Source: Pontimicrobium aquaticum (GTDB lineage: Bacteria; Bacteroidota; Bacteroidia; Flavobacteriales; Flavobacteriaceae). From it: DNA of 64,000 nucleotides. Where the stretch lies: contig NZ_SUPL01000001.1 in NCBI RefSeq assembly GCF_005047595.1, positions 310,001 through 374,000 on the forward strand, written 5' to 3'. The translations under genes and the position numbers were made by a program. The notes under the pieces are model-generated. The model was not told where the DNA came from, searched no databases, and saw only the letters and a list, made by a program, of their open reading frames with translations. Below, one piece after another: positions 43,106 to 63,456 of this stretch; within the stretch, counting starts at the first letter, position 1; each line of letters begins with the position of its first letter.

Positions 43106-46100
43106 TTACCCAACAATATTCACAATTTTACCTGGAACTACAATCACTTTTTTAGGTTCACGACCTTGTAATTGTTCCTTTGTTTTATCGTTTGCCAACA
43201 CAGCCGCTTCAATCTCTTCTTTGCTTAAATCTAATGACAACTCCATCGTAAAACGCATTTTACCATTAAACGAAATTGGATAATTCTTCGTGCTTTCTAC
43301 CAAATGGCTTTCATCAAATTTTGGAAAATCGGCAGTTGAAATTGATATATTATGACCTAATTTGCTCCACAACTCTTCTGCAATATGTGGTGCATACGGC
43401 GACATTAACACCAATAATGGCTCTAAAACATCTCTACTTGTACACTTTTGGGCTGTTAACTCATTAACCGCAATCATAAAGGTTGAAACAGACGTATTGA
43501 ATGAAAAGTTCTCGATATCTTCTTCTACTTTCTTTATGGTTTTATGCAGTGTTTTTAAAGCGTCTTTTGTTGGTGCAGCATCAGTAACTTTTAAGCCATT
43601 ATCGTCGTTATACAATTTCCATAATTTTTTTAGAAAACTATGCACGCCTGTAATACCAGCTGTATTCCAAGGTTTGTATTGCTCTAATGGTCCCAAAAAC
43701 ATTTCATACAACCTTAAACTGTCTGCGCCATACTGTTCGCAAATGTTATCTGGATTAACGACGTTGTATTTAGATTTGGACATTTTTTCGACGTCTCGTT
43801 TTACTTTAAAAGTTCCGTCTTCTTCACAAATAAACTCGGCATCCTTAAATTCAGGTCGCCAATTTTTAAATGCTTCAATATCTAATTCATCAGAGGAATT
43901 CACAAAAGATACATCTGCGTGAATTGGAGCAATACTAAAGTCATTCAAATCAAATTTAGAATTAGAAATATTGATTTCTAATAACTTTTTAATATCTGCC
44001 TTTTCTTTTATCAACTCATTAGAAATAAAAATGATAGGAATATCAGAATGTTTTACGCCTAGTTCTTTATTCTTTTTGCGACTTTGCAAATCATTTTTTA
44101 AATTCAAATTAACCCTATAAACAAAAGCACTCGTCCCTAATATCATCCCTTGGTTAATCAGCTTTTTAGCAAACTCATCATAAGGCACTAACCCTAAGTC
44201 AAACATGAATTTTTGCCAGAAACGCGAGTACAATAAATGTCCTGTAGCGTGCTCGCTTCCACCAATGTACAAATCTACTTGCTCCCAATAATTAATCGCG
44301 TCTTGAGAAAAAATCTCCTCGTCATTATGAGGGTCCATATAACGATTAAAATACTGTGAGCTTCCTGCCCAACCAGGCATGGTGTTAAGTTCGAGAGGAT
44401 AAATGCCGTTATCGGACACTGAGGTTCTCGAAGTGTCCGATGAGTCGGTGGCTTCGAGTGCCTCAGCCACCAAATCATTTGAAACAACTTTATTTGTTTT
44501 TGTACACCAAGCCCAAACCGTAGCGTTTCCTAATGGTGGCTCGCCAGTTTCGGTTGGCAAATACTTTTCTACTTCAGGTAAGGTGATTGGTAAATGCTTA
44601 GCATCAATCATTTGAGGCATTCCATTTACGTAATACACAGGGAAAGGTTCGCCCCAATAACGCTGACGAGAAAACACAGCGTCACGTAATCTATAATTGG
44701 TTTTTCCTTGTCCTTGACCCAGTTTTTCTAATTCGTAAATGGCTGTTTTTACCGCTTTCTTATACGTCAGTCCATTTAAAAAATCACTATTAGTAATAAT
44801 GGTATTGTCTTTATCTGCAAAGGCTTCTTCCGAAATATCAACCCCTTCAAAAATATTTGGAATTGGAATATTAAAATGTTTAGCAAAGTCGTAATCACGT
44901 TGGTCACCACAAGGCACCGACATGACTGCTCCAGTTCCGTAACCAGCTAATACGTAATCACCAATCCAAATCGGGATTGGTTCTTTGGTGAATGGATGTT
45001 CTGCGTAAGCACCTGTAAACGCACCTGTAATGGTTTTTACATCTGCCATTCTATCGCGTTCACTGCGTTTTGCAGTGGCTTCAATATAGGCGTCCACCTC
45101 AGCTTTTTGTTCAGGTGTTGTGATTTTTGACACTAGCTCGTGTTCTGGAGCTAAGGTCATGAAAGACACTCCAAAAATAGTGTCAGGTCGTGTGGTGAAG
45201 ACATCGATTTTATGAGACCCTATAGCTGCGTTCGACACAACAGATTGCTGAATTTCGGACACTGAGGTTCTCGAAGTCTCTGATTTGCTTTGTTGCGCTT
45301 CGAGAGCCTCAGCGCCCAAAACGTTAAACGTTACAGAAGCACCAACTGATTTTCCAATCCAGTTGCGTTGAATTTCTTTTAAAGGTTCTGGCCAATCAAT
45401 GGTGTCTAATCCTTGAAGTAAACGCTCTGCATATGCTGAAATACGCATACTCCATTGAGTCATTTTTTTTCTAATAACAGGATGTCCACCACGTTCAGAA
45501 ACACCATTGACAATTTCGTCATTGGCTAGCACTGTTCCTAAAGCAGGACACCAGTTTACTTCGGTTTCAGCTAAATAGGTTAATCTATATTTAAGTAATA
45601 TTTCTTGTTGTTGTTCAGATGAAAAGTTGTTCCATGCTTCAGCAGTAAACACTTCAACATCATCATCACAAGCAGTATTAACACTTTTGTTTCCTTCAGC
45701 TTCAAAAATTTTAATTAATCCTGAAATGTTTTCAGCTTTATCTGCATTATTATTATACCATGAATTGAATAGCTGTATAAAAATCCACTGTGTCCATTTG
45801 TAATAACTAGGATCACTAGTTCTTACTTCACGAGACCAATCGAACGAAAAACCAATTTGGTCTAACTGACGACGATAAGTTTTAATGTTTTCTTCGGTTG
45901 TTATTGCTGGATGTTGCCCAGTTTGAATAGCATACTGTTCTGCAGGCAACCCGAAACTGTCATAGCCTTGAGGGTGTAATACGTTAAATCCTTTATGTCG
46001 TTTATAACGCGCATAAATATCACTAGCAATATACCCTAATGGATGCCCAACATGCAAGCCTGCTCCAGATGGATAAGGAAACATGTCTAACACATAATAC

Positions 46101-46195
46101 TTAGGTTTTTCGCTATTATTTTCGGCTTTAAACGTCTGGTTTTCTGCCCAATATTTTTGCCATTTGGCTTCTATCTCGTTGAAATGGTATTTCAT
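43106..46195 (-). CDS. leuS: leucyl-tRNA synthetase with two palindrome-derived insertions
   Basis: This class I synthetase (1029 residues) charges tRNA-Leu and edits mischarged tRNA in its CP1 domain. HIGH motif HVGH at 48-51, editing-domain TTRPDT after about residue 325, KMSKS at about 804-808. The start at 46195 ([16 protein letters not shown]) matches homologs; an upstream ATG at 46243 adds 16 atypical residues and lies upstream of a -7 element. Two inserted peptides with the shared ends AEALEA and TSRTSVS occur at about residues 294-314 (within the editing domain, between GASVTFNV and [10 protein letters not shown]) and 577-595 (before [14 protein letters not shown]). Each is encoded by a palindromic repeat. 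Confidence 0.96.
44413..44466. repeat. palindromic repeat inserted in leuS, copy A
   Basis: Left arm CTGAGGTTCTCGAAG (44419-44433) pairs with CTTCGAGTGCCTCAG (44452-44466) over 13 of 15 positions, with an 18-nt loop. The 5' flank TCGGACA is shared with copy B. In the leuS frame (- strand) it encodes [19 protein letters not shown]. Confidence 0.85.
45256..45312. repeat. palindromic repeat inserted in leuS, copy B
   Basis: Left arm CTGAGGTTCTCGAAG (45262-45276) pairs with CTTCGAGAGCCTCAG (45298-45312) over 14 of 15 positions, with a 21-nt loop. The left 22 bases are identical to copy A. In the leuS frame it encodes [20 protein letters not shown], the same frame and orientation as copy A. Confidence 0.85.
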
Positions 46196-60599: not shown

Positions 60600-60678
60600 A
60601 TAAAAAGATTCCGAAACTCACTTCGATGTAGCTCAGTGCAAGCATTCGGAATAAAAAAATCTCGCTCACACGAGATTG
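60600..60678 (-). promoter_or_regulatory. greA leader with two tandem terminator-like hairpins
   Basis: Read on the - strand from the promoter: hairpin 1 is AATCTCG/CGAGATT (60658-60677) followed by seven T; hairpin 2 is ATTCCGAA/TTCGGAAT (60608-60652), with an inner 4-bp CACT/AGTG pair, followed by CTTTTTATT. The greA ATG lies about 22 bp further on. No minus-strand gene ends here, so the structures belong to the greA leader. Confidence 0.6.
60607..60652. repeat. palindromic repeat in the greA leader
   Basis: The 46-bp palindrome contains CACTTCGATGTAGCTCAGTG, which shares the core CTTCGA-(4-5 nt)-CTCAG with the repeats inside leuS and, in weaker form, with the repeat at 63428-63456. Confidence 0.55.
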
Positions 60679-63427: not shown

Positions 63428-63456
63428 AGACCTTTCGACTGCGCTCAAGGTGACAG
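63428..63456. repeat. palindromic repeat between the riboswitch and the TonB receptor
   Basis: On the - strand ACCTT...AAGGT closes a 5-bp stem with a 12-nt loop and is followed by CTTTTTC, a weak terminator shape. The core TTTCGACTGCGCTCAAGG is related to the CTTCGA...CTCAG core of the leuS and greA repeats. Confidence 0.5.

Follow-up and report, generated by a model that had tools for sequence, protein, structure and literature searches.

In-frame palindromic doublets in leuS of Pontimicrobium aquaticum share cores with an element carrying a GIY-YIG nuclease gene

The leucyl-tRNA synthetase gene (leuS) of Pontimicrobium aquaticum carries two palindromic inserts. They are genuine, keep the reading frame and belong to a general kind that is already known. 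What is new is their link to a GIY-YIG nuclease, which is well supported as an association. We consider it probable that the leuS inserts are non-autonomous miniatures of a palindromic element whose full-length form carries the nuclease gene. Both the insertions and the association of nuclease and repeat are observed directly, and from these we infer mobilisation by the nuclease.

Two inverted doublets in leuS

The stretch of 64,000 nucleotides that was analyzed (the window) contains leuS and both inserts (Table 1). An original prediction, made from the letters alone, had described two palindromic copies inside the gene, equal in orientation and frame, with an identical 22-base end and with spacers of 18 and 21 nt. 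All these features were confirmed at their coordinates: the arms lie at 44419-44433 and 44452-44466 in insert B (spacer 18 nt) and at 45262-45276 and 45298-45312 in insert A (spacer 21 nt), and the reading frame stays open through both. With up to three mismatches allowed, the arm occurs four times in the window, always inside leuS; shuffled sequences contained a mean of 0.62 occurrences and none of 100 reached four.

Each copy had been read as one simple palindrome, and this description has to be replaced by that of a REPIN-like doublet of hairpin units. In the coding direction, insert B consists of GGTGG-CTGAGGCACTCGAAG-CCACC, a short spacer, and then ATCGGACA-CTTCGAGAACCTCAG-TGTCCGAT. The order is the same in insert A, whose cores are CTGAGGCTCTCGAAG and CTTCGAGAACCTCAG. 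The core of the hairpin unit is CTGAGG-NN-CTCGAAG, and each half of an insert is able to form a hairpin with a two-base bulge. Folded as single-stranded DNA, insert B reached a z-score of −5.45 (0 of 200 shuffles as good) and insert A one of −3.74 (1 of 200). In insert B the two hairpins fold separately, each with an outer stem of its own, and in insert A both units join in a single long hairpin; the unit is therefore an inverted doublet.

Aligned with Thermus thermophilus LeuRS (1h3n), site A maps to the beginning of the Pfam editing domain, between residues 240 and 242, and site B lies before the stretch aligning from residue 494. The expected placement in the editing domain holds for site A; the 45256-45312 copy comes first in the protein and the 44413-44466 copy second. 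Downstream of the insert A peptide there is extra loop sequence that was not found in relatives. An AlphaFold2 model of this LeuRS (28-row alignment) was discarded, having a mean pLDDT of 55 and a pTM of 0.32, and loop placement is based on the 1h3n alignment. Elsewhere in the protein, about residues 690-765, before KMSKS, length and sequence differ greatly among relatives; this stretch is probably the leucine-specific insertion.

Table 1. Positions in the window of leuS, its two inserts and their hairpin units and cores, with a further core type
Feature	Position	Strand	Remarks
leuS, leucyl-tRNA synthetase	43106..46195	minus	1029 aa, one ORF open through both inserts; matches 1h3n
Insert B (site B, VVSNDLV then [10 protein letters not shown])	44413..44466	minus	inverted doublet, 54 nt, translated as 18 residues
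Hairpin unit of insert B, ATCGGACA-CTGAGGTTCTCGAAG-TGTCCGAT	44411..44441	no strand	outer stem 8 bp
Hairpin unit of insert B, GGTGG-CTTCGAGTGCCTCAG-CCACC	44447..44471	no strand	outer stem 5 bp
Insert A (site A, GASVTFNV then [10 protein letters not shown])	45256..45312	minus	inverted doublet, 57 nt, translated as 20 residues
Core CTGAGGTTCTCGAAG of insert A	45262..45276	plus	identical to core in insert B and to right end of GIY-YIG element, G000:C1:12450-12464
Core CTGAGGCTCTCGAAG of insert A	45298..45312	minus	outer stem 3 bp
CTGAACTTGTTTCAG			core of another type, non-cognate to CTGAGGNNCTCGAAG

The repeat family in the genome

The exact core CTGAGGNNCTCGAAG occurs ten times in the genome (3.3 Mb), four of these in leuS, against an expectation of 0.010 under a third-order Markov model trained on the window and none for the core read backwards; the anticipated recurrence of the repeat elsewhere in the genome is thereby borne out. 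The wider pattern CTGAGN{3,6}TCGAAG was found 38 times, compared with three for the backwards control and 1.21 expected under the same model. Two further sites of the CTGAG..TCGAAG type, at 60621-60636 (exact) and 63433-63448 (two mismatches), lie in the window and are by themselves within chance for it.

Outside the core, the sequence varies between copies, yet it is complementary to its own partner. Across the 38 copies, the contiguous outer stem measured 2.58 bp on average, compared with 0.58 bp when partners were shuffled and a maximum of 1.42 bp in 2000 shuffles. What is conserved in the repeat is the core together with the ability to form a stem. The flanks of these copies are variable, with GGT recurring, and the tetranucleotide GTAG was not found in them next to the stem. 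Likewise, the combination of a CGTC/TGTC tag, AT at the stem foot and a CCA tail is absent from the leuS element. Among 16 chosen genomes, doublets in the leuS order occurred at ten places in seven genomes and doublets in the reverse order in none. The exact doublet is rare, being present in four of 397 Flavobacteriaceae genomes, at seven places.

In this genome, other intragenic copies lie in A2M-like, PolA, UvrD, GH92-like, DUF1343-like, glycosyltransferase-like and 3-hydroxyacyl-CoA dehydrogenase-like ORFs, some named by eye and others by Pfam. One of the ten cores lies in the IleRS gene (L007 1500-1515, G000:C1:504227-504241), where it replaces native codons at unchanged length. Insertion was ruled out for this core, as eight relatives have equal length there. 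Compared with the nearest relative, 11 of the 14 differences in the region fall within 22 bases, which looks like conversion rather than insertion. As a sign of a copying step, the IleRS site is a hint only, because it was picked for having the core. Nearly all of 11 further places at which an insert or core falls within an ORF of this genome have one codon phase in common; this was dropped as evidence because the IleRS case is not an insertion.

A GIY-YIG element with the cores of insert B

A GIY-YIG ORF at about 12.1-12.5 kb is enclosed by two of the ten cores (G000:C1:12123 and 12450), which point towards each other. The left end of this element is CTGAGGCACTCGAAG and the right end CTTCGAGAACCTCAG, that is, both cores of insert B. 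The first part of the ORF is a GIY-YIG domain (PF01541, E-values 2.0e-18 and 6.3e-18), and the frame (434 aa) reads across the right hairpin and into the gene that follows. By eye, the neighbouring ORFs are HMG-CoA reductase-like and GHMP-type kinase-like, with no Pfam kinase match at 1e-5. They are 20-23 bases apart (from the stop codon to the kinase-like GK motif) in seven of seven relatives and 477 bases apart in this genome. Judged from these junctions, the GIY-YIG element is a lineage-specific insertion.

Close relatives of this nuclease were found at 26 loci in 25 of 395 Flavobacteriales genomes, and their flanks were read by tblastn. A palindrome of the CTGAG..TCGAA type is present on at least one side of 23 of the 26 loci and on both sides of 15, and the exact leuS core on at least one side of 15 and on both sides of eight. 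In seven of these eight loci, CTGAGG..CTCGAA stands upstream and TTCGAG..CCTCAG downstream, which is the order of the leuS doublet; in the eighth (L206/L115), the nearest copies belong to an array and have the other order. By eye, nuclease tails of the ELLPxLAIAYRDL kind accompany the leuS core, and tails of the ECxNETH kind accompany CTGAGCG(T/G)AGTCGAAG.

Near-identical GIY-YIG copies with repeats were also seen next to each other, about 1 kb apart at L100 (G018:C15) and about 3 kb apart at L088 (G001:C1), which suggests local duplication. Genes of a different GIY-YIG kind lie at tRNA genes, at L084 1026-1334 (G000:C17, about 102.2 kb), L067, L080 and L081, and ARAGORN places tRNA-Met, -Asp, -Arg and -Val at or near these four genes. 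The stop codon of the GIY-YIG gene at L084 overlaps the start of tRNA-Met, and by eye a broken tRNA-like piece with a palindrome lies upstream.

Turnover of the leuS loops in relatives

In line with the original prediction, the five congeners searched lack the two peptides and have an empty loop or a different insert. Site A is empty in G002 and holds an CGAGCGCAGTCGAG/CTGAGCGCAGTCGAAG repeat in G001, G003, G004 and G005. Site B is empty in G002, G003 and G005, holds the CGAGCGCAGTCGAG/CTGAGCGCAGTCGAAG repeat in G001 and a different insert in G004.

From 110 leuS loci, 95 full ORFs were obtained by the criterion used, and 94 distinct genomes were represented in a LeuRS tree. On this FastTree tree, with strong support on 37 of 91 branches, site A is empty in 49 sequences and filled in 45, requiring at least 24 changes between filled and empty, while site B is empty in 75 and filled in 19, requiring at least 15. 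The content changed type at least 34 times at site A and at least 16 times at site B, types being labelled from peptide patterns, with 12 of the 45 filled site-A loops carrying no type and the site-B label of L128 doubtful on DNA. Inspection of the DNA identified the peptides TLSAVEG, CHSEQSEES, EMLKQVQHD and HSELDSES as translations of different palindromes, and other repeat families at the same leuS loop begin with GTCA. Both leuS loops are old insertion hotspots. The empty sites of relatives are too diverged at the junction to reveal a target-site duplication.

At site B, Aestuariivivens insulae (L123) has a doublet of the same family at the same place, with other stems and one core mismatch. 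The site was therefore entered before, or the element was received by exchange. Because of this related doublet, the recent insertion envisaged in the original prediction is not shown for site B. Moreover, filled site-B alleles of different genera have the flank NG(I/V)YPLEL in common and differ mainly in the repeat, a pattern that points to shared alleles in which the repeat may have been replaced in place.

These observations would be compatible with repeats that are old and passive, their movement having long ceased and the turnover in leuS reflecting recombination of alleles and local drift of the hairpin sequence, and the conversion-like replacement in IleRS fits as well. We regard this explanation as unlikely, though it is to be taken seriously: it has to accommodate the many changes of content at site A, a GIY-YIG element found in this genome alone at a junction that is empty in all seven relatives, and cores of insert B that are still identical to those of that element.

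Palindromes at GIY-YIG genes in general

The association extends beyond the leuS core. Among 83 small GIY-YIG genes from 44 genomes, 42 had an inverted flank match with a score of at least 14, compared with four of 418 control ORFs taken around leuS of other genomes (Fisher 3e-33); the other 41 genes missed the threshold. When flanks from different genomes were paired, 289 of 6640 pairs reached this score. An earlier control, in which 15 of 80 ORFs scored at least 14, was replaced, as its ORFs came from the same loci and shared the palindromes. Nuclease similarity and palindrome similarity are correlated across genomes (Mantel r 0.591, p 2e-4) among 47 genes with scores of at least 13, picked for having a matching palindrome pair, and r is 0.527 without pairs of protein similarity of at least 0.7. 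Shared descent of the nuclease and its ends would also yield such a correlation.

Similar results were obtained with plasmids. Of 32 records with a match, 12 GIY-YIG loci were examined, and an inverted pair scoring at least 14 was present at 11 of them, compared with three of 129 control genes from three of the records (Fisher 6e-13). Nine of the positive loci are alphaproteobacterial and the others belong to Planktothrix and Spirosoma, Photobacterium being the miss. In Azospirillum, the GIY-YIG gene lies between sufB and sufC. CGTC-type REPs occur at several loci, with CGTCATCCTCGGGCTTGACCCGAGGATCCA as an example of an end that has their layout. No GIY-YIG match was found in phages with the query used.

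The doublet anatomy is that of a REPIN, an inverted REP doublet as described in the available part of PMC3116915, and a single weak match of RAYT type is present in the genome (34.9 bits, a 179-aa frame at G000:C17:256574). Classical REPIN/RAYT mobility, in which a Y1_Tnp (PF01797) transposase moves the doublets and GIY-YIG is cargo between two REPs, could be considered. RAYT-type genes, used as a check of the method, indeed had their own inverted repeats in eight of 12 scored ORFs, but these are different repeats, and the CTGAG..TCGAA palindrome was found at none of the 12 loci. Furthermore, the flanks of the RAYT-type match in this genome scored 7.5 and no PF01797 match was found in 24 of 40 relatives, so that we hold this explanation to be improbable. 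Ordinary length variation of fast-evolving LeuRS loops with coincidental palindromes is barely credible: both loops do vary in length among relatives and some filled site-A loops have no repeat type, but the core greatly exceeds its expected number in the genome, and both inserts belong to one doublet family and fold beyond shuffles.

DUF559 domains inside host proteins

Two relatives have unusually long LeuRS frames, of 1148 aa in L278 (G028) and 1138 aa in L279 (G007). The extra stretch lies at site A, in the loop of the editing domain, and is a DUF559 domain (PF04480; E-values 4.9e-33 in G028 and 2.2e-11 in G007), so one leuS loop holds either miniature repeats or a nuclease-bearing insert, depending on the genome. 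The G028 insert is flanked by CCCCC..GGGGG palindromes, and G042 has small inserts of a similar kind at both leuS sites. DUF559 is also found in frame inside RecG (G001, G004, G005 and G011; loci L290, L301, L303 and L308) and MetH (G004, G020 and G042; loci L287, L288 and L299), and at the end of HisD (G015; locus L282); Pfam confirmed one RecG, one MetH and the HisD case. A flank score of at least 14 was reached at 11 of 22 scored DUF559 loci, and at one of eight (L303) where the domain is embedded in RecG, MetH, HisD or LeuRS; L294 scored 11. Palindromes in the linkers of embedded domains were seen by eye. The evidence for DUF559 is weaker than that for GIY-YIG, because the flank match is limited to one of the eight embedded loci.

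A proposed route into leuS

According to the nuclease-linked explanation that we prefer, the nuclease would recognize the extruded hairpin, in which the core CTGAG..TCGAAG is conserved and the outer stem would be needed for pairing only. Some GIY-YIG enzymes are known to cut branched DNA, and a hairpin substrate is therefore plausible. The nuclease might then cut at or near the foot of the hairpin, and the element could be joined or copied into a break elsewhere; the IleRS core at constant length would fit a copying step in addition. In leuS, the element would have settled in two loops on the protein surface that accept additional residues at their boundaries. As the length of each insert is divisible by three and no stop codon lies in that frame, the reading frame was kept and translation adds 18-20 residues to LeuRS at either site; the insert-bearing enzyme is presumably fully active. 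Entry into an essential gene would be tolerated only where loop and frame allow, and hence the same sites recur.

Relation to known elements

The likeness to Rickettsia palindromic elements (RPE-1 to RPE-8) that had been pointed out is apt: these, too, are palindromes in frame in loops of conserved, essential genes, sometimes two per gene. By published description, in the parts available, RPEs are about 100-150 bp long, whereas the leuS doublets measure 54-57 nt and differ in host phylum and probably in sequence; moreover, no partner is stated for RPEs, whereas the leuS repeats have a nuclease partner with the same ends. The statement that no equivalent is known to be described in Flavobacteriaceae has to be qualified. 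In the available text of Di Nocera et al. 2013 (PMC3733652), in-frame REPs outside Rickettsia are reported, with double insertions per gene and with tRNA synthetases and repair genes among the hosts, as are CGTC repeats, listed for Bacteroidetes and for Rickettsia (RPE-4, RPE-6), for which no association with a transposase gene was found. In-frame palindromic repeats in loops of conserved genes, sometimes twice per gene and with tRNA synthetases among the hosts, are likewise covered by the available parts of PMC2229807 and PMC3767692 as well as of PMC3733652.

As in REPIN/RAYT systems, two inverted hairpins are joined by a short spacer, there is a larger gene-bearing form, and gene and repeat co-vary. 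The systems differ in that a Y1 tyrosine transposase acts there and a GIY-YIG nuclease is found here, the leuS element is without GTAG and the RAYT loci examined carry other repeats. CGTC-type REPs have, in the available description, a CGTC/TGTC tail, AT at the stem foot, a CCA tail and head-to-head dimers. The site-A elements of relatives (GTCACC..., GTCATTCC...) and many GIY-YIG ends match this description, whereas the leuS element of the window has GGT and no CGTC tag. Like MITEs, the leuS inserts are short non-autonomous copies whose terminal inverted sequences are also those of a longer coding element of the same genome; unlike those of MITEs, their ends are variable self-complementary hairpins, and no transposase is known for them. 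Homing endonucleases of the GIY-YIG family are also small mobile genes, but the present element has no intron, intein or single homing site and occupies many scattered, repeat-linked sites.

The available text of PMC3733652 does not contain 'GIY-YIG', and a term search of the main text of RepRanger 2025 (PMC12306157) gave no nuclease or transposase. In the open full-text literature, a scope that leaves aside subscription papers and preprints, none of the matches listed ties GIY-YIG or DUF559 genes to such repeats, and no paper contains both 'GIY-YIG' and 'repetitive extragenic palindromic'.

Significance

The larger finding lies outside leuS and beyond the view of the original prediction, namely the GIY-YIG partner. 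Since the work on Rickettsia it has been known that essential genes can contain palindromes in frame, and for repeats without a tie to RAYT the question has been what spreads them. A nuclease gene bracketed by these ends, with subfamilies that go with the type of repeat and an occurrence in Bacteroidota, Alphaproteobacteria and a cyanobacterium, offers a concrete candidate enzyme. For a wider proposal we judge the chances to be evenly balanced: that GIY-YIG and, in a parallel class, DUF559 nucleases may be the mobility enzymes of a large, unrecognized group of bacterial palindromic elements, including the CGTC-type REPs with RPE-4 and RPE-6 among them, whose full-length and miniature forms would settle within core genes without breaking the frame, the cell then producing LeuRS, RecG and MetH that contain either a nuclease domain or its hairpin remnant. 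LeuRS, RecG and MetH proteins with a complete internal DUF559 domain are odd enough to deserve study of their own, and the leuS loops provide a natural record of repeated insertion into an essential enzyme.
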